NCBI GenBank assembly: GCA_019636235.1
Contig: JAHBXW010000001.1
Coordinates: forward strand, 620,001 to 684,000
Length of the DNA: 64,000 nucleotides
Direction: 5' to 3'
Source of the DNA: Planctomyces sp.
Lineage (GTDB): Bacteria > Planctomycetota > Planctomycetia > Planctomycetales > Planctomycetaceae
Made by a program: the position numbers and the translations under genes. The stretch's first letter is position 1. Each line of letters opens with the position of its first letter. Of this stretch, positions 16,892 to 35,939 are shown piece after piece. A model generated the notes under the pieces. The model saw only the letters and a list, made by a program, of their open reading frames with translations. It made no database searches and was not told the DNA's origin.

Positions 16892-16965
16892 GCGCCCGTA
16901 GCTCAGTTGGTTAGAGTGCATGCTTGACATGCATGAGGTCACTGGTTCGAGTCCAGTCGGGCGCA
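16892..16965 (+). tRNA. tRNA-Val (anticodon GAC)
   Basis: A 74-nt cloverleaf. The acceptor stem is GCGCCCG pairing with CGGGCGC, with discriminator A at 16965; the D arm contains GCTCAGTTGGTTAGAGT. The anticodon stem CATGC/GCATG encloses the loop TTGACAT with anticodon GAC, and the T arm is ACTGG-TTCGAGT-CCAGT. The CCA tail is not encoded. The 3' part from base 33 on is duplicated at 30294-30337, marking this gene as the attachment site of the element that follows. The gene is left intact at the left junction. Confidence 0.96.
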
Positions 16966-16967
16966 TT
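16924..16967 (+). repeat. attL (44-bp direct repeat copy 1)
   Basis: It begins at the anticodon loop of tRNA-Val, covers the T arm and acceptor 3' strand, and ends two bases past the tRNA. It is identical to 30294-30337. Integration in the anticodon-loop-to-3'-end half of a tRNA is a known habit of tyrosine integrases. Confidence 0.92.
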
Positions 16968-17033
16968 TGATTCAACGCCAAGCCGATACGCGAGTTGCGT
17001 AACCTTCCGTCGTCCGGAAGTGCGGCCCTTTTG

Positions 17034-17073
17034 CCTGAAAGATCGTGGTAGCGACTACCGCTTTTCAGGGGGG
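17034..17073 (+). promoter_or_regulatory. Nested hairpin overlapping the integrase ribosome-binding site
   Basis: The outer arms are CCTGAAA (17034-17040) and TTTCAGG (17063-17069). The inner arms are GGTAG (17047-17051) and CTACC (17055-17059). The 3' outer arm runs into the integrase Shine-Dalgarno (AGGGGGGAA, 17067-17075), so the folded RNA could hide part of it. A second small inverted repeat, CTTCCG/CGGAAG, lies just before. The DNA could equally be an arm-type integrase or excisionase site. Both are inferences. Confidence 0.45.
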
Positions 17074-17081
17074 AACGCACG

Positions 17082-18275
17082 ATGCCGCGTCGGAAGACTA
17101 TCCCATCTTACCTCCATCACCGCGCCACCGGGCAGGCGCGGGTTCGGATCGACGGCCGGGATTTCTACCTGGGCGCGTACGGTTCGGATGCGTCTCGGCG
17201 CCGGTACGGCGAGCTGATCGCCAAGCACTGCTCTGGCGTCCTGGAGCCGCCTGGCGATCCGCTGAGCCCGTCTGCAGGCGAATCCGGCCCGTCCGTGGCT
17301 GAGATCGTCCTGGCGTTCCTGCGGCACGCTGAGGGGCACTACCGCAAGAATGGGCGGCCGACGTCCCAAGTCCACCTGTTCAAGAACGCGACGGGGCCGC
17401 TCGTGAGGCTGTATGGGCTTTCCCCGGCCGAGGAGTTCGGCCCGGCGGCTCTGCGGGCGGTCCGGCTGTCGATGATCGATGATCGCCGGTGGTGCCGATC
17501 AACGATCAACTCGCATGTCGCCCGGATCCGGCAGGTTTTCAAGTTCGCCGTCGAACACGAACTGATCCCTGCCGAAACGCTGAATCGACTGCGGGCCCTG
17601 GCGCCGCTCCTGGCCGGACGGACGGCGGCGCCGGATCACGCCCCGGTGATGCCCGTCCCGGAAGCGGACGTCAACGCGATCCTGCCCCACGTCAGCCGGC
17701 AGGTCCGCGACATGATCCGCCTGCAGCTTCTCTCCGGCTGCCGGCCGGACGAGATCGTCTCCCTGCGACCGTGCGACGTGAACCGCGAGGGGGAAGTTTG
17801 GGAATACGCCCCCGCCTCGCACAAGACGCAGCATCACGGGCGCCAGCGCCGAATCTACTTCGGCCCTCGCGCCCAGGCGATCCTGGCGCCGTACCTCGAC
17901 GACCGATCGGCTGAAGCGGCGTGCTTCTCGCCGGCGGAAGCGGAAGCGGAACGCCTGGCCCTGAAACGCCAGAAGCGGAAGTCGAAGGTTCAGCCTTCCC
18001 AGGCGGCCCGAACCGTCCGAAAGCGCCAGCGCGCCCCCGCAGCGACGTACACAGTGGCGAGCTATCGCCGCGCGATCCACCGGGCGTGCAAGGCGGCGGG
18101 CGTCGCGCCCTGGGCGCCGAACCGATTGCGGCACAGCCGGGCGACCGACCTGCGGCGCCGGTACGGCATCGAAGCCGCGCAGACCGTCTGCGGTCACTCC
18201 AAGCTGGACACGACACAGGTCTACGCCGAACGCGACCTCGAGCGGGCGCGATCGATCATGGCGGAATGCGGCTGA
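17082..18275 (+). CDS. Tyrosine recombinase (element integrase)
   Basis: 397 aa. Residues ~1-45 look like an arm-binding N-terminus (RVRIDGRDFYLGAYGS). Residues ~70-180 are a SAM-like core-binding domain, and 190-390 the catalytic domain. Catalytic residues: Arg221 (SGCRPDEI), Lys248, Arg350 in NRLRHSR, His372 (CGHSK) and the nucleophile Tyr381 (TTQVYAERD). The His of the usual H-x-x-R is Asn347. A basic insert of about 40 residues (280-320) lies between the Lys and the second Arg. It starts 114 bp from attL with a strong Shine-Dalgarno. It is the obvious candidate for integration into tRNA-Val. Confidence 0.93.
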   Translation: MPRRKTIPSYLHHRATGQARVRIDGRDFYLGAYGSDASRRRYGELIAKHCSGVLEPPGDPLSPSAGESGPSVAEIVLAFLRHAEGHYRKNGRPTSQVHLFKNATGPLVRLYGLSPAEEFGPAALRAVRLSMIDDRRWCRSTINSHVARIRQVFKFAVEHELIPAETLNRLRALAPLLAGRTAAPDHAPVMPVPEADVNAILPHVSRQVRDMIRLQLLSGCRPDEIVSLRPCDVNREGEVWEYAPASHKTQHHGRQRRIYFGPRAQAILAPYLDDRSAEAACFSPAEAEAERLALKRQKRKSKVQPSQAARTVRKRQRAPAATYTVASYRRAIHRACKAAGVAPWAPNRLRHSRATDLRRRYGIEAAQTVCGHSKLDTTQVYAERDLERARSIMAECG

Positions 18276-18382
18276 GCCCGTAGAATTCCTGCACGCGGGG
18301 ATAGGCTGATCCCCGAACGCCGCGCCCCTTGAGCGGCCCTCCCCGCGTGCTTTCTTTCTCAAGGGTCCGCAAGGGGCGGGCG

Positions 18383-19087
18383 ATGGCGACGAAACCGCTG
18401 CCGGAAGACGCTGAAGAACGGTTCCAACTGAGCCGTGCATGCGACATAGAGAGAGCTAAATGGGAAATGGCGCTCGACGCGATCTTGGTGCGGACTCGGG
18501 AGCGCAAGACGGAGTTCGACCGCCGCCGCGAGCTGCATGAGAAAGCGGTCGCGGCGTGGAAGGCGTTGGAAGCGAACCCTGTCGAAAAGCCAGTCTTTGA
18601 GCCGCGGCCGCTTGAGGTTCCTCCCGACTTCTCCCAGCCCTGGAGGCCGCTCGTCAAAACTGGACCGCTGAAAGACTACCTCGAATTCAGGGAACACGAG
18701 GAGTTGCTGGGCGCGCTGTGCAATCAGTTCGACGCCCTGGATGTTTCTGGAGTCGAAGCCGCCTTCAAAGACCTGGTCGGCATGCTGGATCGGCTTCAGC
18801 AGAGACTCGACGCACCCCCTGCCTCTGGGCCGGCGGCGGGAGCGGGCGAATTGCGTCTCGCCGACCGGCTGCGCGATTCAGGGATTCAGCGACGGCCGCT
18901 TGCGCTGATTCGGTTCTGCGACGGCAAGCGGACTGTTCGCCTGTCTGAACTGTCCCCGGGCATCTGGCCAGACGCCCCCGGCATCGGAGCCGTGAAAACG
19001 GCGCTGCACAGGGCGAACAACGCGCTCGTCAGGATCGGGCACGCGAAAACGCTGTCTCTGAGGGGGGCGGAAATCGTCTGGGTGTGA
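18383..19087 (+). CDS. Coiled-coil protein of unknown function
   Basis: 234 aa; the ATG at 18383 follows AAGGGG. Residues ~5-65 are a charged helix (ERFQLSRACDIERAKWEMALDAI...), the middle is Pro-rich, and residues ~95-140 form another predicted helix (LLGALCNQFDALDVSGVEAAFKDLVGMLDRLQQRL). The C-terminal ~75 residues (LALIRFCDGKRTVRLSELSPGIW...ALHRANNALVRIG) could be a small winged helix with a final beta strand (SLRGAEIVWV), which would suit a DNA-binding accessory or regulator. I do not recognise the family. It sits between integrase and HTH protein, where satellites often carry regulators. Confidence 0.5.
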   Translation: MATKPLPEDAEERFQLSRACDIERAKWEMALDAILVRTRERKTEFDRRRELHEKAVAAWKALEANPVEKPVFEPRPLEVPPDFSQPWRPLVKTGPLKDYLEFREHEELLGALCNQFDALDVSGVEAAFKDLVGMLDRLQQRLDAPPASGPAAGAGELRLADRLRDSGIQRRPLALIRFCDGKRTVRLSELSPGIWPDAPGIGAVKTALHRANNALVRIGHAKTLSLRGAEIVWV

Positions 19088-19097
19088 TTTTCTCGAA

Positions 19098-19136
19098 GTT
19101 ACATGGAAGTTACACCAGATGTAACTCTGGTGTAAC
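19098..19136. promoter_or_regulatory. Cluster of four GTTACA/TGTAAC half-sites (operator or origin candidate)
   Basis: Two direct GTTACA copies (19098-19103 and 19109-19114) are followed by two TGTAAC copies (19120-19125 and 19131-19136). The inner part is a perfect 11-bp inverted repeat, GTTACACCAGA / TCTGGTGTAAC, around a 6-nt centre that is itself a half-site. Copies recur every 11 bp, about one helical turn, so a protein array on one DNA face is plausible. There is no T-run, so it is not a classic terminator. It lies just before the DUF1580-like gene. Confidence 0.6.
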
Positions 19137-19195
19137 TCGCGGTCTGTCTGATGCGGATGTCGCCGATCGTGGCGACCCGCATCGGAGACACGCGA

Positions 19196-19495
19196 ATGCA
19201 GGCAGATCAGCAGGAGTACATCCCCCTCCCCCAGGCATCCGCCCACATACCTGGGAGCCCGCACCGATCGACGCCAGTGCGCTGGGCGCTGCATGGGCTG
19301 CACATCGGCGGGCAGATCATCCGGCTCCGCACCGTCCGGGTCGGCGGGCGGAGGTTCACTACGGCCGTGTGGATCGAAGAGTTTCTGGCGGCGTGCGACG
19401 GGCGCGATCAGCAGCCTGTCGCGATGACTCCCGCGCGCCGCCGCCGGCAGGCGGAAGCGGCTGTGGATGCGCTCGCCAGCATGGGCGTCGGTTGA
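19196..19495 (+). CDS. DUF1580-like helix-turn-helix protein
   Basis: 99 aa from the ATG at 19196 (an in-frame ATG at 19151 would add 15 residues). The pattern IPLPQASAHIPG...STPVRWALHGLHIGGQIIRLRTVRVGGRRFTTAVWIEEFLAAC matches DUF1580, a planctomycete-rich family that resembles MerR/AlpA-type excisionase HTH folds: a short HTH that reads the DNA, then a beta-hairpin wing, then a helix with the W-x-E-x-F-L element. The assignment is by motif memory only. Position after the integrase and next to the GTTACA array suggests a control or excision role. Confidence 0.65.
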   Translation: MQADQQEYIPLPQASAHIPGSPHRSTPVRWALHGLHIGGQIIRLRTVRVGGRRFTTAVWIEEFLAACDGRDQQPVAMTPARRRRQAEAAVDALASMGVG

Positions 19496-19509
19496 TCGGG
19501 CCCGCGCAC

Positions 19510-19536
19510 AAAAAAACGCCCGCTGGCAGGCGGGCG
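19510..19536 (-). terminator. Rho-independent terminator pointing to the minus strand
   Basis: The hairpin CGCCCGC (19517-19523) / GCGGGCG (19530-19536) has, on the minus strand, a run of seven T directly after it (A-run 19510-19516 on plus). It sits between the HTH gene and the replication gene, both on the plus strand, so it would stop an antisense transcript coming from inside the replication gene. Confidence 0.5.
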
Positions 19537-19556
19537 CGAACACAGGAGGAGCACGC

Positions 19557-21212
19557 ATGCTACCCACTGCGGCACGAGGCCGCCACCACAACACGCCCCT
19601 CGCCGATCGCACCGCGGAAATGGCGGTCATCGGCTGCATGCTGCTCGATCCCGAGCTGGACGATCCGCGACTGGGCGTGGGGACGTTCACCGGGACGGAC
19701 ACCGCGCGGGTCTACGAGGCGATCCTCAGCATGCGAGTGGAGGACGCCGCCACGAGCGATCCCGTGTCGGTCGCCCAGCGCCTCGCCGATCGCGGCTGGC
19801 TCGAGGATATCCCTGGCGGCGTGGCCGGCATCGCGGACTACATGGCGACGCCGGGGGAACTCGCCAGCTACGGCTCTTACGTGGATCGGTTGATCCACCT
19901 GCAGGCCCAGCGCGAGGCTGCCCTGGCGCTCGAGTCGGCGATGCGGATGCTCACCGCGCCGGGCGCCGACCTACATGCCGCTGCGCTGGCCCTGGACGGC
20001 ATCCGGGACGAGCTGGCGGCCTCGCGGACCAGTGGATACCTGAGCCCGGCGGAGCTGGTCGCCGCCCACCCCGACCTGCCGCGTCCAGTCATCCACGGTC
20101 TCCTGCGCGCCGGCGAGGTCGCGAACCTGATCGGTGGCTCAAAATCGCAAAAAAGCTGGGCGGTCCTGCAGCTCGCGATCTGTGGCGCCATCGGCATGCC
20201 GTGGCTGGGGCGTTACGAGGTCGAGGCAGGGCCGGTGCTGCTGATCGATGCGGAGCTGAGACTGCCAGTCCTCGCATCGCGGCTCAGGACTGTCGCTGAT
20301 GCCATGGCGGTGAGCGTCTCATGGCTGGGGCAGCGGCTGCTGATCCGGGCGCTCCGCGGCGAGCGCGCCGACCTGCTCTCGGTGTTGGCGCACGCCCGGC
20401 GGATGCGGCCGGCCCCGTCGCTGCTGATTGTTGACCCGCTGTATCGCCTCCTGCCCGCCGGCGTCGACGAAAACTCCAACCACGACATCGCGCACCTGTA
20501 CTCCGCGATCGATCAGACGGCGGAGCGGATTGGGTGCGGCGTCGTCGTCGTCCACCACAGTTCAAAGGGCGCGCAAGCGGACAAGCGCGTGACGGACGTC
20601 GGCGCGGGCGCCGGTGCGGCGTCTCGAGCTGTGGACGCCCATCTGGTGATGCGCGAGCACGAGGATCCCGACTGCGTCGCTCTGGATGCGGTCGTGCGCT
20701 CATTCCCCCGGCCGGAGCCAGTCGTCCTGCGGTGGTGCTTCCCGCTTTGGCGGCCGGATGAGGACCTCGACCCTGCCCGGCTCCGCGGCGCATCCTCGCC
20801 TGCCGATCAGCGGCAGGCCGATCGCGACGCAGTCGGGATCCGGAAGATCGTCGAGACGCTCCGGCGGGGCCCCGCGACCGCCCGCAAGATCCAGGATACG
20901 ACCGGCATTTCCCGCTGCCGCCTGGCCCGGCTGCTGGCGTCGCTGGTGGAGGCCGGAGACCTCCAGTCCGCGGACCGCCGCATCCGCGGAAACGACTGCC
21001 TGGAGTATCGGCTGACCGACGTGAGCGATGAGTCACCGCCCACGTTACCCGCGTCGCCGCCCACGTCATCCGACGTGCGTGCGCGGCCCACCCCCGTAGG
21101 GGGGGCCGCCCACGTCCACGTCACGTCGGCGGCATCCCCGTCCGTGGGTGGTCTGTGGGGTGGGGCATCGCCCACGTCCACGGGTCCGGAGATGTCTGGG
21201 GGTGATGGATGA
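19557..21212 (+). CDS. Replication ATPase: DnaB-N-like domain fused to RepA-type AAA ATPase
   Basis: 551 aa; the ATG at 19557 follows AGGAGGAG. Residues ~12-110 (PLADRTAEMAVIGCMLLDP...VYEAI) resemble the N-terminal helical domain of DnaB helicase. Residues ~180-380 are a RepA-like RecA-fold ATPase: GGSKSQKS Walker A (193-200), LLIDAE, LLIVDPLYRL Walker B with Asp293, and VVVVHHSSKG as sensor. Residues ~425-490 look like a winged helix (TARKIQDTTGISRCRLARLLASLVEAG). The last ~60 residues are low complexity, Pro/Ser/Thr/Gly. Known RepA-like hexameric helicases start plasmid and phage replication. No primase motif is seen. The next gene overlaps by ATGA. Confidence 0.75.
   Translation: MLPTAARGRHHNTPLADRTAEMAVIGCMLLDPELDDPRLGVGTFTGTDTARVYEAILSMRVEDAATSDPVSVAQRLADRGWLEDIPGGVAGIADYMATPGELASYGSYVDRLIHLQAQREAALALESAMRMLTAPGADLHAAALALDGIRDELAASRTSGYLSPAELVAAHPDLPRPVIHGLLRAGEVANLIGGSKSQKSWAVLQLAICGAIGMPWLGRYEVEAGPVLLIDAELRLPVLASRLRTVADAMAVSVSWLGQRLLIRALRGERADLLSVLAHARRMRPAPSLLIVDPLYRLLPAGVDENSNHDIAHLYSAIDQTAERIGCGVVVVHHSSKGAQADKRVTDVGAGAGAASRAVDAHLVMREHEDPDCVALDAVVRSFPRPEPVVLRWCFPLWRPDEDLDPARLRGASSPADQRQADRDAVGIRKIVETLRRGPATARKIQDTTGISRCRLARLLASLVEAGDLQSADRRIRGNDCLEYRLTDVSDESPPTLPASPPTSSDVRARPTPVGGAAHVHVTSAASPSVGGLWGGASPTSTGPEMSGGDG
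21038..21177. repeat. Four GCCCACGT repeats at the 3' end of the replication gene (iteron candidates)
   Basis: Identical 8-mers start at 21038, 21059, 21108 and 21170. Copies 1, 2 and 4 share a codon phase but copy 3 is in another phase, so the repetition is not forced by a repeated peptide. They fall in the low-complexity tail of the replication ATPase, a place where iteron origins are often embedded in phages and plasmids. The uneven spacing (21, 49, 62 bp) weakens the iteron reading. Confidence 0.45.
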
Positions 21213-21694
21213 GTTACCCGGCCGCCGATGAGCTGCTCGACGTCCGACCGCAGCCGGAGCGATTCGCGCTCGTCCTCGAGATCCCGCCCGATCGAATCCC
21301 CGCGACGATCCGGCTCCGGGCCGTGCTGAAGCACTTATGGCGAGCCTGGCGATGCCGCGCTGTCGCGATTGAGCGGGTTGACTGCCCGGGCAACCGGGAC
21401 GGACTCCAGAGTCTCGACGATGCAGTTTTTGCCTGGCACCACGTACGGAGGAAACTTCTGATGCCCGACGACCACTACCTCGACGACGTTGCAGTCATCA
21501 GCCAGCCTGACCTGGCGAAGTCCAGTTACAGAATGGCGCTCGTCGAACTGATCGGAGCTGGCGCCCGGGACGGCGAGTTGTGCCTGCGGGTCATCCTGCC
21601 GGGCGGCGCCGAGTTCGTCGTCGATCAACCGGCCGCGCTAAGCATCGCCGTCGACCTGCAGGCGATGGTCCTGCAGGCCCGTCAACGCGAGTGA
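21209..21694 (+). CDS. Hypothetical protein coupled to the replication ATPase
   Basis: 161 aa; its ATG overlaps the previous stop (ATGA), so translational coupling is likely. The first ~80 residues (PERFALVLEIPPDRIPATIRLRAVLKHLWRAWRCRAVAIERV) have the look of small phage proteins of the replication region. The second half, from Met85 (MPDDHYLDDVAVISQ...), is preceded by GGAGGAAA at the right distance and might be made separately from 21461. No family recognised. Confidence 0.5.
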   Translation: MSYPAADELLDVRPQPERFALVLEIPPDRIPATIRLRAVLKHLWRAWRCRAVAIERVDCPGNRDGLQSLDDAVFAWHHVRRKLLMPDDHYLDDVAVISQPDLAKSSYRMALVELIGAGARDGELCLRVILPGGAEFVVDQPAALSIAVDLQAMVLQARQRE

Positions 21695-21765
21695 TTTCCC
21701 CGTAAACTTTCCGCGGCGCGTGTTGCGCCGCAATAGCTGCCCGTGATAGTGCAGGAGTGATTTCG

Positions 21766-22248
21766 ATGAAGAGTGATTCGAAAACCGAACCGAAGCCCGA
21801 GGCCGTCAGCCCGGACGTGGCATCCGTTGCCGCGCAGATCGCCGGCGCGGTGGGCAGCGCGATCGCCGAGGCGATCAAGCAAACCCTCAGTACGCTCATC
21901 GACGCGCGGCCGCGATCGTTCGCAGAACAAATCGCGGACGGCAGCGAACGCATCCAGCGCGAGGCCGAGGCGTTCGACGCCGCACAGGCGGAAGCCTGGG
22001 CCGCGCTCGCCGAGGGCCCCAAGAAATTCAAATGCCGCGTTGCAACCCGAACATTGCACGGCGCCACGAAAACCATCAACCGCGAATGCATCGTCGGCGC
22101 CGCGTCCGCGCCCGACGCGGAAGCGAAATACAAATCCGCGTTTTCGATCAGGCATGTCAGCACGCCCGCGTTTTTGCAGACCGTTGATGCCGACGCCCGA
22201 TTCCAGGACCTCGACGAAAACTATCCCGCCGCCTACGTGGCTGGCTGA
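21766..22248 (+). CDS. Hypothetical protein with amphipathic N-terminal helices
   Basis: 160 aa; the ATG at 21766 is preceded by CAGGAGTG (a GTG at 21757 is the alternative). Residues ~15-45 are small and hydrophobic (VASVAAQIAGAVGSAIAEAIKQTLSTL), then a charged helix, then a domain with KKFKCRVATRTLHGATKTINRECIVGAASAPDAEAKYKSAF, which looks like a small beta-rich fold. It lies 71 bp after the previous gene. In phages this slot often holds small structural or scaffold-like proteins, but I cannot assign it. Confidence 0.5.
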   Translation: MKSDSKTEPKPEAVSPDVASVAAQIAGAVGSAIAEAIKQTLSTLIDARPRSFAEQIADGSERIQREAEAFDAAQAEAWAALAEGPKKFKCRVATRTLHGATKTINRECIVGAASAPDAEAKYKSAFSIRHVSTPAFLQTVDADARFQDLDENYPAAYVAG

Positions 22249-22312
22249 CAACCGCCGCAAACAGTGCGGGCCGCTTTACCATTTCCTGTAAGTCATCACA
22301 CGGAGGAATCGA

Positions 22313-22675
22313 ATGTCACAAAAAGTTCTCATCAGAGAATCGAACGAGACGCTGCTCGGCGGACCCCCGCCTGCGCGACCAGCAGTCCGCCCGGGCATCG
22401 GGACGGCCGTCCGCAACCTGCGCCGGACGATCGAATCGCGCTTCCGCGCCGGCGGCAAGCTGACTGCCGTCGAGTCGAAAAACCTGGCGTCGTGCCTGGA
22501 ACTCGCCGCGTCGAAGCTGCGTCGCGAAGCCTCTGCGAAGCCTGTCGCGAGCGTCGTCGAGTCGCAGGCCAAGCCCGCCAGCCGCCCGGCGGTTCCCGGG
22601 GCGTCAGCGCGGTCGAAGCCGAAGCCGGCCAAGCACGAACTCACCGACGCCGAGATTGCGAAGCTGTTCCGCTGA
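22313..22675 (+). CDS. Small basic hypothetical protein
   Basis: 120 aa; the ATG at 22313 follows CGGAGGAA. Arg/Lys/Ala/Pro-rich: a folded core (GTAVRNLRRTIESRFRAGGKLTAVESKNLASCLELAASKLRRE) and a long Ala/Pro/Lys linker, ending in a short helix HELTDAEIAKLFR. Such a tail may be a docking peptide. No family recognised. It is the last gene before a hairpin that seems to divide the replication genes from the tail-like genes. Confidence 0.5.
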   Translation: MSQKVLIRESNETLLGGPPPARPAVRPGIGTAVRNLRRTIESRFRAGGKLTAVESKNLASCLELAASKLRREASAKPVASVVESQAKPASRPAVPGASARSKPKPAKHELTDAEIAKLFR

Positions 22676-22741
22676 TTGACACTCGCGTCCGTCATGCCAT
22701 TGCCGGAGTCGTTGCCGGCTCGCCGAAATGGCGGACGCGAA

Positions 22742-22776
22742 GGGGGCGGCCGGTAGTCTCCCTGCCAGCCGCCCCC
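22742..22776 (+). terminator. GC-rich hairpin, possible terminator
   Basis: Perfect 9-bp arms GGGGGCGGC (22742-22750) and GCCGCCCCC (22768-22776), followed by AACTTTGAAATC. The T-run is weak, so it may attenuate rather than stop transcription. A TTGACA at 22676-22681 just before has no good -10. Confidence 0.45.
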
Positions 22777-22822
22777 AACTTTGAAATCTCTCACAATTGC
22801 CCCCTTTCCCTCAGGAGTTGAA

Positions 22823-23131
22823 ATGCTGATACCCGCGATCATCACCGAGTCCACCACCGCCGACGTGACAATCAACATCCCCGGCATCGTTCCAATGAAC
22901 CTCACGTACAAGCCGATGACCCTGTCTCAACATCAGGCGTTCGTCCGGCGCATCCGCGACCTGAACGACGCGGCATCCGATCAGGCGATCCTCGATGAGA
23001 TCGCCGCCCGTGTCGTCACCTGGTCTCTCGATGCGCCGGTGTCCGCTGAGACCGTTGGCCGGTTGCAGTCGCCCATCGGCGATCAGCTCTACGAAACGAT
23101 CTTCGGGACGCCTTCCGCGCCGAAGCGCTGA
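22823..23131 (+). CDS. Tail-assembly-chaperone-like protein
   Basis: 102 aa; the ATG at 22823 follows TCAGGAG. Layout: a beta-rich start (IPAIITESTTADVTINIPGIVPMNLTYKPMT), then a helical part (QHQAFVRRIRDLNDAASDQAILDEIAARVVTWSL) and a final helix (SAETVGRLQSPIGDQLYETIFG). This is the pattern of small phage proteins made just before the tape measure protein, which act as chaperones for it. The large tape-measure-like gene does follow, at 76 bp. The -1 frame stays open past the stop to 23202, which recalls the G/GT frameshift pair of phage lambda. Assignment rests mostly on order and shape. Confidence 0.5.
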   Translation: MLIPAIITESTTADVTINIPGIVPMNLTYKPMTLSQHQAFVRRIRDLNDAASDQAILDEIAARVVTWSLDAPVSAETVGRLQSPIGDQLYETIFGTPSAPKR

Positions 23132-23206
23132 ATCCCCCTGAGCGCCCCGGCCGGTGGGATTCGACCGGGGTGATTCTTCACGAACACACACGCCGAGAGT
23201 GACGCC

Positions 23207-25183
23207 ATGCAAGCAACAGGCCAGGGCACGGGTCCGATCTACCGCGACGTCGTTTTCCGGATCAAGCTGGAGCGACATCAAGATTCCATCGATCCCAGCA
23301 GCTTGAACCCGCGCAACCGGGCGGGGCTCTCCGCGTCATCCGTGGCCGGCAGTGCGATCGGCGGACAGCAGCGGTCCGTCCAGGATCAGTTGCACCAAAT
23401 CCGACTCAAGAACCGCCTCGATTATCTGATGGCGCGATCGGCGCGCAACGAACGCCAGTGGCTTCACGAAGATCGCCTGCGGCAGCAGCAGCGCCGCCGC
23501 GAGAACACACTCGCCAGCCTGCAACTGCAACGGTCCGCTCAAATGCGCAGCGCGGGCAGCAGCCTCATGTCCGCCGGCAGCGATGCGCTCGGCCTGCTGA
23601 AGAACCTGTCGATCCTGAGCGCGACCAGCGAGAAGGACATCGAGAAACTGGCCCGTCGCTGGCTGTACCTCACGGCCGCATTCGAGAGCGGCCGCGGGGC
23701 CATCAGCGTCGTTCAGAACCTCTGGGCCGCACTGGACAAATTCAAGAGAGTCGGCGGTCTCAGCGCCTCAATCACCAGCCTCGGCGGGGCCGGCGGTCTG
23801 GCGTCGCGGATTGGCGGCGGCGCCATGTCGTTCCTCACGGGACTCGGCGCGGCGGGCGGGCTGCTGTCACTGGGCGGCCTCAAGTACACGGCCGCGTCCG
23901 CCTATGGCGGAATGAAGGCGATGGGCGCCAGCGCTCTTGGTGGAAAGGCGCTCGCCCTGGCAAAACCGGCGTTTGCCATCACGGGCGGTTTAGTGGGCGG
24001 AGAGTACCTGTCGCGACAGTTCAGCCGAGACGGGAAAGGGACGCTCGAGACCGGCTGGGAGGCGGTCCAGAATTGGAATCGCGAGAATTCGTACTACGGC
24101 CGGGGCCGCGTCATTTCCGACGCATGGAAAGAACGCCGCTCCCCGGAAGGCATCGAGCGTCGCCAAGAGATTCGCGGGAAACGACACGAACTCCTGGCCG
24201 GGTATCGAGAGCAACTCCGCGACGCGCAGATCGAAATGCGGGAAGCCGACGCCTCTCGACGAAGTGGCCGGGCCGGGCTGCACATGCTCCGGCAGGGGGC
24301 GCTCCAGGACCTGGGCGCCGCCCGGAAGAACCTCGCCGAGGCGCGGACGAACCCCGGCGGCGACCTGGGCGTCAACCGCAAGCAGGAGGCGCTGGCACTG
24401 CGGGAAGTCGAACAGGCCCAGCGCCGACTGCTGGACGTGGACACGCGCCGCGCACAGTTAGTTCAGGAAGAACTGAAGCAGCGGCGGGCGATCACGCAGG
24501 AACTGAAGGCGCAGGTTCAATCCGCGAAGAAAGGCGCGGAAGGCGAGCAAATCCGGTTCGGGCAACTCGGCAAAGGCTCGCAGCAACGCGTGTTGGAGCT
24601 TTTCAAAAAGCACGACAAAGGCGAGAAGTTGAACGAGTTTGAAATCGAGACCCTTCGGGATTATGGCATTGGTCACCGGATCATTGATGAACACGATCGT
24701 GAGAAAGGAGAGAAAGCCGGCCTGACAATGGAATTTATTCGCGGCAGCAAGAGCCTCTACGTCTCCGAAGAACTCCAAATGGCGGAACGCCAGCTCCAGG
24801 ATTCGCAGGAGAACGAGATGATTCTGCAGCACGAGGATTTCACTCAGGAACAGCGTCGCCGGGCGCAGGCCGATCAGGCGATGGGCGCCACAACGGAGCG
24901 GGTCGCGGCGGAGGCGCGGGAAGCGGGCCTGGTCGGCGAAAACCTGATGGAATCCGCGCACCGCATGCGGGAGTTGAACACTGCCATGCAAGAACTCTCT
25001 GAAACGCTGGGATCCATGTCCCAGAGGGCCCGAGAAGCGAAGAACAATCTGCGCATGGATGATGCGGTGAAGGGCGCGACCGACGCTCTCAGGAACGCGA
25101 TTGGCAAGATGGCCGGCGACGTCCATCAGGTAGCGGAAGAAGCGAAGCGCCGAAATCTGAGTCAGATCAGTCAGCGGCGGTGA
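23207..25183 (+). CDS. Tape-measure-like protein
   Basis: 658 aa, the longest orphan of the element. Residues ~50-130 are charged coiled coil. Residues ~180-270 are Gly/Ala/Leu-rich with two or three hydrophobic stretches (SITSLGGAGGLASRIGGG, MSFLTGLGAAGGLLSLGG). The rest is long charged helix with Gln/Arg/Glu. Tape measure proteins of tailed phages share this makeup: long helical rods with central hydrophobic segments. If the family ratio of about 0.15 nm per residue holds, the tail would be near 100 nm. There is no lytic-enzyme domain. With the chaperone-like gene it forms a two-gene tail module with no other tail gene. A plain coiled-coil protein is the alternative. Confidence 0.55.
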   Translation: MQATGQGTGPIYRDVVFRIKLERHQDSIDPSSLNPRNRAGLSASSVAGSAIGGQQRSVQDQLHQIRLKNRLDYLMARSARNERQWLHEDRLRQQQRRRENTLASLQLQRSAQMRSAGSSLMSAGSDALGLLKNLSILSATSEKDIEKLARRWLYLTAAFESGRGAISVVQNLWAALDKFKRVGGLSASITSLGGAGGLASRIGGGAMSFLTGLGAAGGLLSLGGLKYTAASAYGGMKAMGASALGGKALALAKPAFAITGGLVGGEYLSRQFSRDGKGTLETGWEAVQNWNRENSYYGRGRVISDAWKERRSPEGIERRQEIRGKRHELLAGYREQLRDAQIEMREADASRRSGRAGLHMLRQGALQDLGAARKNLAEARTNPGGDLGVNRKQEALALREVEQAQRRLLDVDTRRAQLVQEELKQRRAITQELKAQVQSAKKGAEGEQIRFGQLGKGSQQRVLELFKKHDKGEKLNEFEIETLRDYGIGHRIIDEHDREKGEKAGLTMEFIRGSKSLYVSEELQMAERQLQDSQENEMILQHEDFTQEQRRRAQADQAMGATTERVAAEAREAGLVGENLMESAHRMRELNTAMQELSETLGSMSQRAREAKNNLRMDDAVKGATDALRNAIGKMAGDVHQVAEEAKRRNLSQISQRR

Positions 25184-25224
25184 ATCCTTCAGGCCAATTG
25201 GCCGCAGGTTTCTGTCCGGGAACC

Positions 25225-25404
25225 TCAGGCCCGTTCCCGCGCGGCCGCATTCAATGCACTCCGCATCCACTGACTCAAATCGAGCAGCTCCGCGTCCGCA
25301 GCGGCCCGCCAGGCGTCCAGTTCCTGTAGAGACACGCGAAACGTCAGCTTTTCCGACTTCGCGAGGCGGGGGCGTACAGGGGCTTTGGCGGGGCGTTTCT
25401 TCAT
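25225..25404 (-). CDS. Small ribbon-helix-helix-like protein
   Basis: 59 aa; the only minus-strand gene of the element. After a basic arm (KKRPAKAPVRPRLAKSEK) comes LTFRVSLQELDAWRAAADAELLDLSQWMRSALNAAARE, which fits a ribbon-helix-helix: a beta strand (KLTFRV), then two helices. These fold as dimers and bind short repeated operators. A divergent gene starts at 25541 and the space between holds two GTACTGAC copies. Role inferred: repressor of the element. No partner toxin is adjacent. Confidence 0.6.
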   Translation of the reverse strand: MKKRPAKAPVRPRLAKSEKLTFRVSLQELDAWRAAADAELLDLSQWMRSALNAAARERA

Positions 25405-25413
25405 GGCGACAGC

Positions 25414-25487
25414 GTACTGACTTCGTCCGGCCGTGGTCAAATCCTGAAAAATTCCGGAGTCTCGTGAACCGCTGGCAATGTACTGAC
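25414..25487. promoter_or_regulatory. Divergent control region with two GTACTGAC copies
   Basis: GTACTGAC occurs at 25414-25421 and 25480-25487. Reading the minus strand, TTGACC and TACGCT about 18 bp apart could drive the RHH gene, with one GTACTGAC copy overlapping that -10. This is what self-control by a ribbon-helix-helix protein would look like. Confidence 0.4.
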
Positions 25488-25540
25488 GTTGTATAGGCAC
25501 TGGTTAGTTGCACTATCACCACCAGCTATGGAGCGCAAAC

Positions 25541-25831
25541 ATGCCGACCGCCACCAAAACCGCCACGTCAACCCGGCCCGCATCGTTCGCGAAAGACGTC
25601 CGCAAGATCGACCGGGAGTTGCGGAAACAGCAGACCCGGACGCCCGACCCGTTCAAGATTCAGGTCTACGGCGAGGACGGCGAACTGGTCATCGTCTTCC
25701 CTGAGTCGGAGCAACTCATCGACTGCGCCGCTTGCGGGCTGACGCCGACCCAGGGCGTGGCCTGGCTGATCCGGGAGCAGGCCCGCCATCTGGGCGACCT
25801 GGCCGCCGCGATCGAAGCCGAAGGCTGCTGA
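25541..25831 (+). CDS. Small hypothetical protein
   Basis: 96 aa from the ATG at 25541 (a weak upstream in-frame start at 25508 exists). The N-terminus is Thr/Ala-rich and basic, then [59 protein letters not shown] short beta-hairpin followed by helices, with CAAC in the loop, suggests a compact fold, but I do not recognise a family. It is divergent from the RHH gene and may share its control. Confidence 0.45.
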
Positions 25832-25896
25832 TTCTCGACGCATCCCCGGCGGCCGGGATTACCGCTTTCCCGCTTTCCAAGAGGAGATCACACACC

Positions 25897-26181
25897 ATGA
25901 CCAAGTCTTGTTCCTGTCCTGAACCGAGCGACCGTCCAATCACTGCCGGCGACACCGTGCGGCTGAAGTCCGGCGGCCCGGTGATGACCGTCAGTGCGAT
26001 CAAAGACGGCATCGCGACCTGCGTCTGGTTCACCAAAGATCAGTCCAGTGTGGGGCTGAACGCGCTCGCCAGCACGGTCCGCGTCGGCGTCGCCGCGCTG
26101 GTTTTCATGCGGGTTGTGAAGTTCCGGGTCCACGAGCCACCGACCACGGCAAAGCCCGCGTATGACGCACACCGCCTCTAG
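25897..26181 (+). CDS. YodC-like (DUF2158) small protein
   Basis: 94 aa; the ATG at 25897 follows GAGGAG. The segment [35 protein letters not shown] matches the DUF2158/YodC pattern (GD-V-LKSGGP-MTV...C-WF), a small beta-barrel of unknown function found in many phages and islands. The C-terminal third ([20 protein letters not shown]) is extra. It lies 65 bp after the previous gene. Confidence 0.65.
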
Positions 26182-26229
26182 AACCCGGCGGCGCCGCGGT
26201 CAGGTCTGAGTTGCCACTGATCGCGGCGT

Positions 26230-26280
26230 GGGGGCGGCACGGCGCCGAATGCGTGAGACGTTCGGCCGCCGTGCTCCCCC
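26230..26280. other. Long imperfect stem-loop
   Basis: About 18 base pairs in three blocks: GGGGG/CCCCC, GCACGGCG/CGCCGTGC and CCGAA/TTCGG, with small bulges and an 11-nt loop. There is no T-run on either side. It fills most of the 141-bp gap between the YodC-like gene and the first recombinase-like gene. It might protect an mRNA end or be a small RNA. Confidence 0.5.
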
Positions 26281-26322
26281 GGCTGACACCTCTTCCCCAT
26301 CCGTCAAATCTGGAGATCACCG

Positions 26323-26778
26323 ATGCCCACTCGCACCCCGCTCAAGACCTGGACCGCTGACGACGTGCAACGGTTGCTGAATGCGTGCCAAAAACTCGAC
26401 GGCACGATCGACGGCATCCCCGCCGCCGACTGGTGGGCGGCCTTCACTCAGTTGCTGCTCGAGACCGGGATCCGGGCCAGCGACGCCCTCGCGCTCTCGC
26501 CCGCGAGCCTGAATTTCGATCGTGGCACGGTCCGCGTGCATGTCCGCAAGCTCAGCCGGGACTTCGACCTCGACCTCAGCGAATCTCTGGTCGCCGACTT
26601 TCTGGAGATCATCCTGCATGGGGAACCTCGCGAACGCCTGTTCCCGTGGCGGGAAACACGCGGCCGGCTGGTCACGACGTTCCAGACGCTGTGCCGCGCC
26701 GCGGGCATCGAGGGCGCCGCCTCGCCGTTCGCCACGGCCCGCATGACGCACGTTCAACGCCAGGCCGGAGGGCGATGA
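26323..26778 (+). CDS. Short tyrosine-recombinase-like protein lacking the C-terminal active site
   Basis: 151 aa; the ATG at 26323 follows GGAG. LKTWTADDVQRLLNACQ and QLLLETGIRASDALALSPASLNFDRGTVRVHVRK correspond to the start of a recombinase catalytic domain, including the first Arg (GIRASD). After that the chain becomes short and ends with ATARMTHVQRQ; the H-x-x-R, the second His and the Tyr are missing. The N-terminal core-binding domain is also absent. It could be a decayed gene or a DNA-binding partner of the next gene, which begins 50 bp later. Confidence 0.55.
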   Translation: MPTRTPLKTWTADDVQRLLNACQKLDGTIDGIPAADWWAAFTQLLLETGIRASDALALSPASLNFDRGTVRVHVRKLSRDFDLDLSESLVADFLEIILHGEPRERLFPWRETRGRLVTTFQTLCRAAGIEGAASPFATARMTHVQRQAGGR

Positions 26779-26827
26779 AGCTCCCCGACTCGCACTGATT
26801 CGAGTCCCTTCACTGAAAGGCCAAGCC

Positions 26828-29092
26828 ATGTCTGCGATTCCCCTGCAGACGCTGCTGGAGCTGGTTCACCATGATTTCCGCTCCGCGCATCCGCAGCTTT
26901 CCGATCACGCCGTGCGGAACTTCCACTTCGCGGTTCGCAGTCTGGAGCGCTTCGCCGGCGGCACGCTCGAGCCGGCGAACCTGTCGGAATCGCTGTTCGA
27001 TCGCTGGTACGCCGACGCCCGACGTTCCGGAAGCGAATCGACGGCCCGCGTGCGGCGCACGCTGATCCTCAAGCTCTGGCGCTGGCTGGCTGCGGCTGGG
27101 CATTGTCCGCCGCTTCCCGAGTCCCTGACCGACGTGCCGGACGCCGCCGATCGATACGCCGCGATGGACGCCGCCGCGGAGGGGCTGACGCTGCGGGGGT
27201 TGCTGTGGGAACGCTACGTCCCGGTTCGCCGCAACCTGAAGCCGAAGTCCGCCGAACAGGTCGAGTTCTCGGTCCGGGCGTTGTACCGGTTTCACGATCG
27301 CGCTGTCCGCGTGGACGAGCTGTCCGAACAGACGATCATGCCGTTCATCGCGCACCTTCAGGACACGCGGTCCGGGCACACGGCGCGACGCTCGGCCACG
27401 CATCTGATGATGCTCTGGCGGTTCGCCTGGCGGCGGAAGTTGATTGAGGTCGAGATTCCGCGGGACTACGAGCCGCCGCGGCTGTTGCGGACGATTCCCA
27501 AGGCGTGGACGCTCGACGAACTGGGCCGCATCTTCGAGGAATGCTTGAACCGCCCCGGGATGATCCGGGGCACGGACATCCGGGCGGCTGATTTTTGGCT
27601 GTCGCTGGTCACGTTCGCCTACGAGTCCGGGGCCCGCATCGGCGCCATCCTGGCCGTCCGTCCCGAGGACGTGGACCTGCGGGAATCTCAGGTCGTCCTG
27701 CGGGCGGACGCTGCGAAAACGGGCGTTGAGCAACTCGTGCCGATCAACGATGCGGCGCGCACGGCCATCGGCCGGATTCTCGGTCGCGACGCCGAACGGG
27801 TCTGGCCCTGGCCGGCCGCGGCTCGGCAGCTCTGGGGCGATCATCGAGAAATCCTGCTCGACGCGGGCGTCATTCGAGAGGACGAACAGGGGGTCGGGTT
27901 CCACCGCTACCGGCGGACGTGCGCCACACAGTCGGTCATCGCCGCTGGCTGGGACCATGCCCGCATTGCCCTGGGGCATTCGCAGGAAAGCATGACGCGA
28001 TCGTACGTCGATCTGCGGCAGGTTCCGCGGCCGCGACTGCATCTGCCGATGCCGTCGATCGTTCAGACCGCTGTCCGAAATCAGCCCGCGCTGCAGTTCT
28101 CTCCGCAGCCCGTGGCGCTGATCGGCGAGTCCGGCAAGTCATCGGCGATCGAGGGGGCTGATCCGTCCCGTCGCCTCTGCGGCATCGACCCGGACGAGCC
28201 GGCTGAAGTCTTTGGAGACTGGCAGTTCCGCCGGGGCGGATTCGTCGCCTTCGAAGGCCGGTGGACCCAATTGGAGAAGCGGCACGCGCTCGTCTTGCGG
28301 CTGCTGGTGGAGCGCGGCCCGCGATCATCGATCACAAAGCGGGACATCCTCGCCGTCGCAGGCGAGCCGCCGACCGGCAATCCACATCGGGCGGCAGACG
28401 CGATCATCAACTCGCTGCGGCGATCGCTGCGGCGGCGGTACCCGGAATTCCGCGAGGCGGACCCGATCCGCGTGGCCCGAGGCGGCCCATCGCACGGGAC
28501 GGGCTGGACGCTCAAGATTGATGCCGCGCCGTGCCCGCTGGGTTCGCTGCGGGTCACGGCGGACGGGTTCGAATTCGAGGGGCGGTTCTACCCGGCCGAA
28601 GCGTCGCCGCTCCGGGACGCCGTGGAACACATGCTGGCGGGCGAATTGATCCCCAAGGGCTCCGGACGCCTGGCGACGGCCGTTCGGAACTACCTGCGGC
28701 GCGTTCTGGGGCTCCCGAAGTCCGCCAATCCCATCATCCGGCACGCCGGCATTGGCTGGGGGCTGAGTCTGCCGGGACAGGACCGAGCCGCGCTCGCCTT
28801 CACGCTGACCGACGACGGCGTTCGGATCGGCGGCCGGCTGTTCCGACCCAGCCCCTACGGGCAGCGCGTCCTGGCGGCGTTGCGGGGCGCGGATGCTCCG
28901 ATCGGGCATCGGGAAATCTGCGAAGCGGTCGGGGCGGCGCCCTCCCACAAACGAGCCCGCAAAGCCGTTTCCAGCCTGCGTCGCTGGCTTCGCGGCGTGC
29001 TGTCGCTGTCGTGCGATCCGATTCCCTGCGGCGGCGTGCATGAGGGCGGGACATGGTCGCTTACACTGACCCCGCCCGCCCGGTGCGGTTGA
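26828..29092 (+). CDS. Tyrosine recombinase fused to three tandem winged-helix-like domains
   Basis: 754 aa. Residues ~1-95 and ~120-205 are two SAM-like core-binding domains. Residues ~225-400 are a complete catalytic domain: Arg270 (SGARIGAI), Lys297, His359-x-x-Arg362 (FHRYRR), His384 (LGHSQ) and Tyr393 (RSYVD). Residues ~465-565, ~573-650 and ~657-747 are three similar units. Each opens with a beta pair such as GFVAFEGRWTQLE, GFEFEGRFYPAE or GVRIGGRLFRPS, and continues with helices and a closing strand (GTGWTLKI, GIGWGLSL, GGTWSLTL), as in OmpR-type winged helices. I know no family with this order. It may act in excision, in resolving replicated DNA, or as a regulator. Confidence 0.75.
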   Translation: MSAIPLQTLLELVHHDFRSAHPQLSDHAVRNFHFAVRSLERFAGGTLEPANLSESLFDRWYADARRSGSESTARVRRTLILKLWRWLAAAGHCPPLPESLTDVPDAADRYAAMDAAAEGLTLRGLLWERYVPVRRNLKPKSAEQVEFSVRALYRFHDRAVRVDELSEQTIMPFIAHLQDTRSGHTARRSATHLMMLWRFAWRRKLIEVEIPRDYEPPRLLRTIPKAWTLDELGRIFEECLNRPGMIRGTDIRAADFWLSLVTFAYESGARIGAILAVRPEDVDLRESQVVLRADAAKTGVEQLVPINDAARTAIGRILGRDAERVWPWPAAARQLWGDHREILLDAGVIREDEQGVGFHRYRRTCATQSVIAAGWDHARIALGHSQESMTRSYVDLRQVPRPRLHLPMPSIVQTAVRNQPALQFSPQPVALIGESGKSSAIEGADPSRRLCGIDPDEPAEVFGDWQFRRGGFVAFEGRWTQLEKRHALVLRLLVERGPRSSITKRDILAVAGEPPTGNPHRAADAIINSLRRSLRRRYPEFREADPIRVARGGPSHGTGWTLKIDAAPCPLGSLRVTADGFEFEGRFYPAEASPLRDAVEHMLAGELIPKGSGRLATAVRNYLRRVLGLPKSANPIIRHAGIGWGLSLPGQDRAALAFTLTDDGVRIGGRLFRPSPYGQRVLAALRGADAPIGHREICEAVGAAPSHKRARKAVSSLRRWLRGVLSLSCDPIPCGGVHEGGTWSLTLTPPARCG

Positions 29093-29148
29093 GCCACTAT
29101 GGTCCGGAGGTTCCCGCATCGCGGCCGGCATCATTCATCGGAAGTTCA

Positions 29149-29331
29149 ATGCCGACACTCACGAACCGTGCCGAGAATCAGGCGGACATCCGCGCGGCGG
29201 CGCGTAGACTTCTGGACGAGTTGATTCTCGAATCGCTCACCAGGCCCGGCGTCACGGAGATCCGCATCCGCATCCCGATCAATCACGGGAAGTTCTCCCT
29301 GCCCCGGGGATCCGTCGAGAGAACCGCATGA
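29149..29331 (+). CDS. Small protein upstream of the terminase-like gene
   Basis: 60 aa from the ATG at 29149 (the frame opens earlier, at 29053). Helical start (NRAENQADIRAAARRLLDELILESL), then VTEIRIRIPINHGKF. Its stop overlaps the next ATG (ATGA), so the two are translationally coupled. It may be a partner or dimeric DNA-binding protein. No family recognised. Confidence 0.45.
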   Translation: MPTLTNRAENQADIRAAARRLLDELILESLTRPGVTEIRIRIPINHGKFSLPRGSVERTA

Positions 29332-29813
29332 GCGCCAACCCCGGACGAACACCCGCCGCCGAGATCGAACGCCGCATCGAGCACGTCCTGGAGCTGCTCA
29401 AGATGCAGCTCACCAAGGGCGACATCAAACGACACTGCCGCGAACGTTGGGGCGTCAGCACTCACACCGCTGAGCGATACCTGGCACGCGCGCGAGAGGC
29501 GTTGCTGAAGGACTCGAAACGCGGCCGGGCCGAGCATGTCGCCGACGTGTACGGGCTGCTGCGGTCGATCATCGAATCCCCCAGCGAACCGAGCCGGACG
29601 AAGCTCCGCGCCGCGAACCAGCTCTGCCGGCTGCTGGGCCTGAACTCGCCCAAGGAATTGATCGTCGAACAATCGCTGCGAGCCGAAGTCAGCATCGACC
29701 TGGGCAAGCCGCAGTCGGCCGCGGAACTGAAAGCCGAACTCGATCGCCGCCGCCTGGCCGCAGCCCGGGCCGCGTCTCGGCGATTGCCGGCGCCCGAGCC
29801 GAGTGAGAACTGA
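29328..29813 (+). CDS. Terminase-small-subunit-like HTH protein
   Basis: 161 aa. Residues ~10-60 form an HTH (IERRIEHVLELLKMQLTKGDIKRHCRERWGVSTHTAERYLARARE), followed by a helical middle (VADVYGLLRSIIESPSEPSRTKLRAANQLCRLLGLNSPKELIVEQ) and a basic tail. The HTH, the oligomerisation-type helices and the LLGL-x-x-P segment are the layout of phage small terminases, which choose the DNA to be packaged. No large terminase is in the element. PICIs encode just such a lone small subunit to redirect the helper phage motor. An ordinary HTH regulator is the alternative. It is the last gene before a terminator. Confidence 0.5.
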   Translation: MSANPGRTPAAEIERRIEHVLELLKMQLTKGDIKRHCRERWGVSTHTAERYLARAREALLKDSKRGRAEHVADVYGLLRSIIESPSEPSRTKLRAANQLCRLLGLNSPKELIVEQSLRAEVSIDLGKPQSAAELKAELDRRRLAAARAASRRLPAPEPSEN

Positions 29814-29839
29814 TCTGCGCATCAACCGGCGGAGCCGGG

Positions 29840-29882
29840 AACCGGGGTTGCGGGTTCAGGCGTTACCGCAGCCCCGGTTTTT
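29840..29882 (+). terminator. Rho-independent terminator of the element's plus-strand genes
   Basis: 14-bp arms 29840-29853 (AACCGGGGTTGCGG) and 29866-29879 with one G-T wobble, 12-nt loop, then TTTTT at 29878-29882. It starts 26 bp after the terminase-like gene stop. Confidence 0.85.
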
Positions 29883-29942
29883 CTTTGCGCCGCCAGAACG
29901 TGTCGAGACGTTCAGCAGCTTCGCGGCGTCGGGCTGGGAGGA

Positions 29943-29968
29943 AACCTTCCGCAAATTTGCGGAAGGTT
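29943..29968. repeat. 26-bp perfect palindrome
   Basis: The half AACCTTCCGCAAA (29943-29955) is followed directly by its exact reverse complement. It lies alone in the 480-bp stretch between the last gene and attR. Such a perfect, loop-free palindrome suits a dimeric DNA-binding protein. I see no credible gene in 29883-30293. Confidence 0.8.
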
Positions 29969-30293
29969 GGTCAGTGCGCTCCCCCTGTCTCATATTCGCC
30001 AGCCGCGCCGCGACCAATGCCCGCTGACTCTCAGTCAGGTGGCGCCGCCCGAGGCCCTGGCTTCGCGTCTGACGCGTCCATCACCTGAGCCCGGGTCATT
30101 GCGTACATTGCTCGCGCACGCGAGGGCGTTCTGCAGAGCCCTCTACCACCTTTGCGCCGGAAAACCACAATTCTTCACGCGTTCTCGCGACGCATGCGAC
30201 GCTTGCACCGATTGCGAAAAGCCGCGATACTCCCTGAACAAACTCAGGCAATCGGGCGCGTAACTGGCTTTCATCGGCGGCCTTATGGTGTCT

Positions 30294-30337
30294 TTGACAT
30301 GCATGAGGTCACTGGTTCGAGTCCAGTCGGGCGCATT
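30294..30337 (+). repeat. attR (44-bp direct repeat copy 2, tRNA-Val fragment)
   Basis: Identical to 16924-16967. It holds only the anticodon loop to 3' end of tRNA-Val, so it is not a functional tRNA. Beyond it chromosomal genes resume. Confidence 0.92.
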
Positions 30338-30436
30338 GGACGCGGTTTCGCCGCAGGGTCTGGCCAGCGCCAGCCCGGCGGGCCGGGTCACAGGAGCGGG
30401 CCGGAATTCTCCGGCCAGAACGGAAACAGGCGACGC

Positions 30437-34529: not shown

Positions 34530-35165
34530 ATGCCGCCGAAGTCTTTCGAAGCGGGCACAATGTCACACACTTGGACTCCACACAGCCACTCTGAAGAGCT
34601 GCGCGAGCGGCTGACTGCCGCGCTTTCACTGGAGACCGCATTCTCTGCCACGGTCTTCCGGACATGCGGAATGGAATACGCCACGAAATTGGATGTGATC
34701 ACCGGCGCTGGATCGCGGAAATTCGGCGGGCGTTGGAATCCGCCTGCTCAGTTCTGTGCCGTCTATGCGGCCTTGGATGCCGAGACAGCATTTGGTGAAT
34801 CGATCACGACGGGCGACAAGTACGGAATCTCAGCCGCCATGCGGATGCCGCTGGTCACGGTGGCAATTCGCGCCGAGCTCTCCCGTATTTTGGATATTTC
34901 CGCTCCGCAGATTCGGAAGAAACTCGGCGTGACCATGGCCGCGATGACGAAAACCGATTGGAAAGCCGCCCAGAACAGAAATCAGGAGGCCTTCACCCAA
35001 CTGCTTGGACGGCTGGCCTTCGAAGTTGGCCTCGAAGGATTGATCGTGCCGTCGATCTACTCGAGAGGTCGCCAGAACTTGGTAGTCTTTCCGGAGCGGA
35101 TGCTGACGACCAGCCGTCTTGAAGTCGTCAACGGCGACATGCTGCCTGAAGGCCGGGGCGGCTAA
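34530..35165 (+). CDS. RES-domain toxin
   Basis: 211 aa from the ATG at 34530 (CAGGTGG upstream); an ATG at 34560 is possible. The RES pattern is visible: VFRTCG with Arg44, RKFGGRWNPPAQFCAVYAALDAETAFGES with Tyr79 and Glu90, then ILDIS and the closing IVPSIYSRGRQNLVVFPE. Studied RES toxins destroy cellular NAD+ by phosphorolysis. The matching antitoxin gene is on the opposite strand, and the two stop codons overlap. Base composition looks a bit less GC-rich than its neighbours, which suits a mobile toxin-antitoxin pair. Confidence 0.85.
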   Translation: MPPKSFEAGTMSHTWTPHSHSEELRERLTAALSLETAFSATVFRTCGMEYATKLDVITGAGSRKFGGRWNPPAQFCAVYAALDAETAFGESITTGDKYGISAAMRMPLVTVAIRAELSRILDISAPQIRKKLGVTMAAMTKTDWKAAQNRNQEAFTQLLGRLAFEVGLEGLIVPSIYSRGRQNLVVFPERMLTTSRLEVVNGDMLPEGRGG

Positions 35166-35578
35166 TTGGGCGCGCCCGACTCCAGTTCGAACACCATCCG
35201 CCACAGGCGATCCACTTCGCCTCGCTCAATCAGTTCGATCGGCTTGAAACCATCGAAGGCTTCGTTCGGCTGCTTCAGCCACGCGCCGATGAATTCCGCC
35301 TTGATCACGCGAGCCAGAGCGTCCCCGATCCGCGTCATTTCGAGCATCGTCTTCCGGCTCGCCTCGCTGAAGGGCTTGCCGCCTTCCCAGTCGGCGATGG
35401 CTCGCTCCGAGTAGCCGGTCGCCCGGGAGAAATCCTTCCGAGTCAATCCGAGACTTGTCCTGAGCGTCCCGATCGCGACGCCACCCGTTTGCACGACCGC
35501 AGCCCGAGCCAGAGTTTCTCGCGCCGGGGCCGACCCGGGCGCCTTGCGTGTTGACTTGCGGCGAGTTTTGAGTGCCAT
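35162..35578 (-). CDS. Xre/MbcA/ParS-type antitoxin of the RES toxin
   Basis: 138 aa from the ATG at 35578. After a basic arm, residues ~35-80 form an Xre-like HTH (IGTLRTSLGLTRKDFSRATGYSERAIADWEGGKPFSEASRK). The C-terminal part (WLKQPNEAFDGFKPIELIERGEVDRLWRMVFELESG) is the DUF2384 domain that covers the RES active site in known complexes. In typical loci the antitoxin precedes the toxin on the same strand; here it faces the toxin gene tail to tail. The frame also opens upstream to 35719, but the Met at 35578 best fits the family. Confidence 0.85.
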   Translation of the reverse strand: MALKTRRKSTRKAPGSAPARETLARAAVVQTGGVAIGTLRTSLGLTRKDFSRATGYSERAIADWEGGKPFSEASRKTMLEMTRIGDALARVIKAEFIGAWLKQPNEAFDGFKPIELIERGEVDRLWRMVFELESGAPN

Positions 35579-35939
35579 GACGTTGCCTCGAATCCTGTTG
35601 CTGTCCGAAGTATCGGTCATTTGCCGCAGAAGATCAAGCACATTCGCATGCAGTTTTTCATGTTCCTGGTTTTTGACGCCCGTCCAGCAACAGGCGGGCG
35701 CGCCGGGCGCCACTGTCAACCGGTCTCAGGTGAAGTGTGCCACTGGCTCCTCCACTGCCGATGTGGGATCATCGGCCGCTGGCCCTCAATGGGAAGGGGA
35801 GCGGCATGGGACATCGCAAACAGGTGGAGCGAGTTCACGAACCCGGGCATCTGCACGAATTCACCTTTCTGGTACGGCTGGGCGCCGGGCGCCACGAGGC
35901 GCTACGGCTCTGTGAGCCGTGGCGAATGGTGAAGGCGGC

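Follow-up and report, generated by a model that had tools for sequence, protein, structure and literature searches.

Why should a tyrosine recombinase carry three OmpR-like winged-helix (wHTH) units at its C-terminus? The direction and site choice of tyrosine recombinases are normally governed by separate small DNA-bending proteins or by an N-terminal arm-binding domain. The question is raised by a gene at 26828–29092 (+) of the window, the whole 64,000-nucleotide stretch of planctomycete DNA analyzed here, in which an uninterrupted ORF of coding-like composition (GC3 0.82 versus GC2 0.53) encodes a fusion protein of 754 aa. Our search of the literature, which fell short of most subscription journals, found no published fusion of a bacterial tyrosine recombinase with an OmpR-type wHTH. 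We judge the chances about even that the protein is an accessory recombinase, probably active, of a planctomycete tRNA-island mobility module, whose wHTH repeats bind arm or accessory sites in cis.

The recombinase half is complete. PF00589 was the sole Pfam domain above its cut-off in the protein (residues 259–396, E 6e-11, 42.8 bits against a cut-off of 27.1). An earlier note, made from the letters alone, had read an R-K-H-R-H-Y active site at residues 270–393 behind two core-binding domains, and both readings held. Alignment with other recombinase domains placed all six catalytic residues (R270, K297, H359, R362, H384 and Y393) where the note had put them, and the recombinase-family profile matched twice, at residues ~8–104 and 120–410. 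The first core-binding (SAM-like) domain spans residues 8–104 (26849–27139, +; the second of the profile matches, domain E 2.3e-10), and the second spans residues ~120–213 (27185–27466, +; the family profile and a sub-threshold PF13495 match, E 0.033). The catalytic domain, defined by PF00589 and the residue alignment, occupies residues ~214–410 (27467–28057, +). The same six residues are retained in the aligned fusions and in nearly all unfused relatives, and are lost in adjacent dead domains. To judge from its sequence, the recombinase part of the fusion protein is probably active. It scored 43.7 bits against the XerC/XerD equivalog models, far below their cut-off of 329.6.

Our analysis also revealed the nature of the tail (residues 462–749). 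A unit profile was built solely from the single units of three other genomes, the window being left out to avoid circularity. It detected unit 1 (residues 462–564; 28211–28519, +), unit 2 (residues 572–651; 28541–28780, +) and unit 3 (residues 659–749; 28802–29074, +) at 36.9, 8.8 and 24.0 bits, respectively, whereas 1000 shuffled versions of the tail gave at most 4.1 bits. Units 1 and 3 are intact, and a direct BLASTP comparison aligns them at E 3e-5. The alignment showed unit 2 to be degenerate, ~15–20 residues shorter and without the helix-2 segment. Thus, of the three similar units claimed in the earlier note, all were recovered by the outside-only profile, with the reservation that the middle one is incomplete. 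The units are basic, with net charges of +10, +3 and +6. An alignment of the whole tail was discarded, as it mis-threaded single units across the repeats.

The assignment of the units to the OmpR type was borne out by several comparisons. Unit 1 scored 21 bits with a profile made only of response regulators (classical OmpR), while none of 1000 shuffles exceeded 1.1, and an alignment of the units that includes bridging unfused relatives matched OmpR-family proteins of the PDB by sequence at E 2e-9. AlphaFold2 modeled unit 1, given with eleven homologous units, at pLDDT 91 in the order strands-HHH-EE, which is the OmpR/PhoB layout of an N-terminal beta sheet, three helices and a C-terminal hairpin wing. 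Foldseek comparison of this model with the PDB returned a top 50 consisting essentially of OmpR/PhoB-type DNA-binding domains (TM about 0.6–0.7), and comparison with viral structures gave zero matches at E <= 0.001. A single-sequence AlphaFold2 model of all 754 aa reached pLDDT 40, and we took from it the order of secondary structure as support. The window units lie below the Pfam Trans_reg_C cut-off (26.2 bits), while the homologous unit of a fusion in another genome, G016, exceeds it at 27.3 bits. For units 1 and 3, we encountered neither a different fold nor a failure to superimpose, the two outcomes that had been named as speaking against the claim.

The gene resides in a 13.37 kb island (16924–30340) integrated at tRNA-Val(gac). 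A 47-nt attL-like direct repeat (16924–16970, +) overlaps the 3' part of the tRNA gene (16892–16965), and an attR-like copy with one mismatch (98% identical; 30294–30340, +) forms the right end of the island. Beside the tRNA lies the island's own integrase (17082–18275, +; phrog_1, PF00589). With its integrase and a directly repeated copy of the tRNA 3' end at either boundary, the segment qualifies as a tRNA-integrated mobile island. The further contents are a DUF1580 gene, a DnaB/RepA-like AAA_25 ATPase, small genes, a long coiled protein, a truncated recombinase and the fusion, which is the second recombinase of the island besides the integrase. In the circular form, as deduced from the coordinates, about 1.4 kb would separate the end of the fusion gene from the integrase, which would follow it in the same orientation. 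PADLOC gave no match for the fusion as a defense gene.

Two further elements of the island were considered. To the eye, the C-terminus encoded by the gene that follows the integrase (18329–19087, +) resembles a wHTH; its similarity to the OmpR-like profile was not significant, and the gene was rejected as a further OmpR-like partner. Its only homologue found, in G016 (C37, L165), likewise stands just after an integrase. An inverted repeat, AGTTACACCAG..CTGGTGTAACT, at 19108–19137 just before the DUF1580 gene is a likely operator.

A class-wide sample of 398 genomes was searched with the full recombinase and wHTH profile. End-to-end matches occurred in five places, namely the window, its congener G001, another genus of the family (G002) and two genes of the Planctomycetaceae MAG OFTM22 (G016), so that four of the 398 genomes carry the fusion. 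The architecture proposed for the window therefore recurs elsewhere, once in a congener, once in one other genus and twice in a third. The window protein is the only one with three wHTH units, each of the others having one, and in G016 the wHTH of one of the fusions is interrupted by an in-frame TAG, which we count against the explanation that we favor. Relatives of the recombinase were present at E 1e-20 in 86 of the 398 genomes, nearly all unfused; most thus do without the wHTH, which is therefore dispensable for the core reaction, a further point against that explanation. On a maximum-likelihood tree, in which only well-supported branches were counted, the fused label requires at least three changes, indicating repeated gains and/or losses of the fusion.

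Searches beyond this sample gave few additions. Viral contigs yielded no fusion, phages and plasmids yielded unfused recombinases only, and the named GTDB genomes returned nothing with the window/congener pair and only the MAG OFTM22 with the G016 pair. Two weak matches were rejected: that in G029 was PriA, and that in G063 (E 0.0035) lay inside an unrelated enzyme. Downstream of an unfused relative in G038 (L109:16775–19624), we observed long tandem arrays, with ~20 in-register copies of a 72-bp unit followed by 126-bp units.

The surroundings of the fusion are constant in part. The three fusions with complete context all lie in tRNA-integrated islands of 12–17 kb. The G001 island, of 12.47 kb, is bounded at tRNA-Leu by perfect repeats of 53 bp. 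Its fusion precedes the integrase by ~80 bp and is codirectional with it, and the apparent defense cargo consists of genes for an OLD-family nuclease and an Mrr/type IV restriction-like protein (L093:10308–13809). The G002 fusion, also codirectional, is located ~285–340 bp upstream of the integrase in an island of ~16.7 kb with ~45-bp repeats at tRNA-Met, the cargo of which includes a terminase small subunit gene. An unfused relative in G050 occupies a 13.6 kb tRNA-Met island. Across the three complete islands, the cargo varies, while the integrase and the second recombinase do not, suggesting that the fusion is part of the mobility module.

A gene just upstream of int, as in G001 and G002, is also where a regulator might be expected to sit, and OmpR-type units are classic transcription-factor domains. 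The protein could accordingly be mainly a transcription regulator of the island, its wHTH array occupying operators for autoregulation or integrase control and its recombinase part being mostly a DNA-binding or dimerizing body; a perfect palindrome between the gene and attR would suit such a role. However, the six catalytic residues have been kept in a recombinase that shares 51% identity with its nearest relative, although the dead neighboring domain shows that loss is tolerated. Moreover, the Pfam search found no receiver domain in the protein, so that it does not qualify as an OmpR/PhoB response regulator, and other input domains are likewise absent. We regard a primarily regulatory protein as distinctly unlikely and retain the accessory recombinase with cis-acting wHTH repeats as the preferred reading.

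The palindrome itself, to which the earlier note had drawn attention at 29943, is real: AACCTTCCGCAAATTTGCGGAAGGTT at 29943–29968 is a perfect 26-mer and a candidate binding or recombination site. It is single-copy, with no second occurrence in the genome even when up to 3 mismatches are allowed, and no similar palindrome was seen in the G001, G002 and G016 loci. We therefore rejected it as a site common to the islands, and no such common site was found among the islands examined, which also weighs against the explanation that we favor. Two 10-bp arms around a 6-bp center can be read in it, as would suit a multimer resolvase of the excised or replicating circle, that is, a Xer-like system that incorporates its accessory proteins, as opposed to an aid to excision or integration. 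The RepA/DnaB-like AAA_25 ATPase suggests that the island has a replicating circular form, and an unfused relative is encoded on the Planctopirus limnophila plasmid pPLIM01. However, the pPLIM01 relative lacks the wHTH tail and has a putative role on the plasmid, and the other fusion loci have nothing resembling the palindrome. We consider a dedicated resolvase unlikely.

The unfused relatives of the wHTH units bear on the accessory recombinase that we favor. The comparison covered the 12 unfused wHTH loci with a readable upstream side, four more being cut by contig ends. At nine of these 12, a tyrosine recombinase gene, broken in one case, lies directly upstream on the same strand; by position, these genes show the linkage to a tyrosine recombinase expected of a candidate wHTH directionality factor. 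The other three loci have no upstream recombinase, and two of them are identical copies. At a generous 1% per gene, the chance of at least nine in 12 is about 2e-16, the loci not being fully independent. Domains that occur as a fusion in certain genomes and as neighboring genes elsewhere are a classical sign of functional partnership. To our knowledge, the directionality factors described so far are Xis/MerR-like wHTHs rather than OmpR-like ones, and we count this against our explanation.

We also considered whether the fusion might be debris. Directly upstream of it lies a catalytically dead, truncated recombinase (26323–26778, +), which matches PF00589 positions 4–128 and lacks the H-xx-R...H...Y end. 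Together with the stop codon in one G016 copy, this fragment could mark the pair as a selfish nested remnant, a decaying passenger in which the C-terminal domain is accidental. Such a remnant is very improbable, since several lineages acquired or retained the fusion, the frames of the window and congener genes are intact with dN below dS (0.51 and 1.46 between the two recombinases, dS being near saturation), the number of units is three in the window against one in the congener, and the linked standalone wHTH genes point to a functional association.

The dead domain has counterparts elsewhere. In L099, L100 and L106, an equivalent domain shares one reading frame with an active recombinase as a fusion, and in L101 the dead and active recombinases are split between overlapping frames. 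Dead and active recombinases thus form a conserved pair, of which the window encodes the dead partner as a separate gene. In relatives, DNA-binding modules have also been multiplied at the N-terminus, with two or three tandem core-binding domains ahead of one catalytic domain (L104:854–2578, with three, and L098:9265–10794).

How would an accessory recombinase with wHTH repeats work? The recombinase part would synapse and cut a core site on the island DNA, and the wHTH units would bind neighboring arm or accessory sites in cis. The tail may then serve as a C-terminal stand-in for an arm-binding domain or for a separate wHTH directionality factor, setting site choice and direction. The protein would most likely assist excision or integration, or else resolve the excised circle. 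The gene's place beside int points toward excision, while the pPLIM01 relative and the RepA-like gene point slightly toward resolution. The earlier note had suggested that the recombinase also reads DNA, for example in connection with excision or multimer resolution; such a role agrees with the location in an island and with the integrase–wHTH pairs. DNA architecture and gene control by the wHTH proteins would be compatible rather than exclusive, because known directionality factors of tyrosine recombinases, in many cases wHTH proteins whose genes lie near int, can regulate transcription as well (PMC11963761). More tentatively, though still plausibly, OmpR-type winged helices may be dedicated partners of tyrosine recombinases in planctomycete integrative elements, captured in several lineages as a repeatable C-terminal array for accessory sites.

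The fusion resembles several known systems in part. It shares with tRNA-island integrases (PF00589; XerA/XerD/phage-Int type) a core-binding and a catalytic domain, a full active site and att repeats at a tRNA; it differs from them in its tandem core-binding domains, its C-terminal OmpR-type array and its place as a second recombinase beside the integrase. With OmpR/PhoB wHTH proteins (Trans_reg_C, PF00486) it shares the fold, the LR-x2-LR pattern of the recognition helix and the C-terminal wing; unlike them, it has no receiver, and its units are recombinase-attached, repeated and, in the window, sub-threshold in Pfam. As with the directionality factors Xis, Cox and RdfS (PMC11963761), a wHTH is paired with a tyrosine recombinase near int, a partnership that is predicted here; those factors, however, are separate small Xis/MerR-like proteins, whereas the wHTH of the fusion is OmpR-type and covalently attached. 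A comparable architecture is that of CryptonF of fungi and oomycetes, a tyrosine recombinase with the C-terminal DNA-binding domain GCR1_C (PMC3212892); in contrast to the fusion, CryptonF is eukaryotic and has a different DNA-binding domain in single copy.

If our reading is correct, a single polypeptide would supply both the recombinase and, in cis, its arm-binding or directionality factor. A natural, recurrent fusion of this kind would allow the influence of accessory sites on direction to be studied within one protein, with the number of units, one or three, as a natural experiment. It would also mark the unfused OmpR-like neighbors as partners of integrases in a phylum that has received little study.

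Elsewhere in the window, we observed a RES-domain toxin gene (34536–35162, +; PF08808, 65.8 bits) and a candidate Xre-type antitoxin gene (35165–35719, −), which are arranged convergently, not in tandem.
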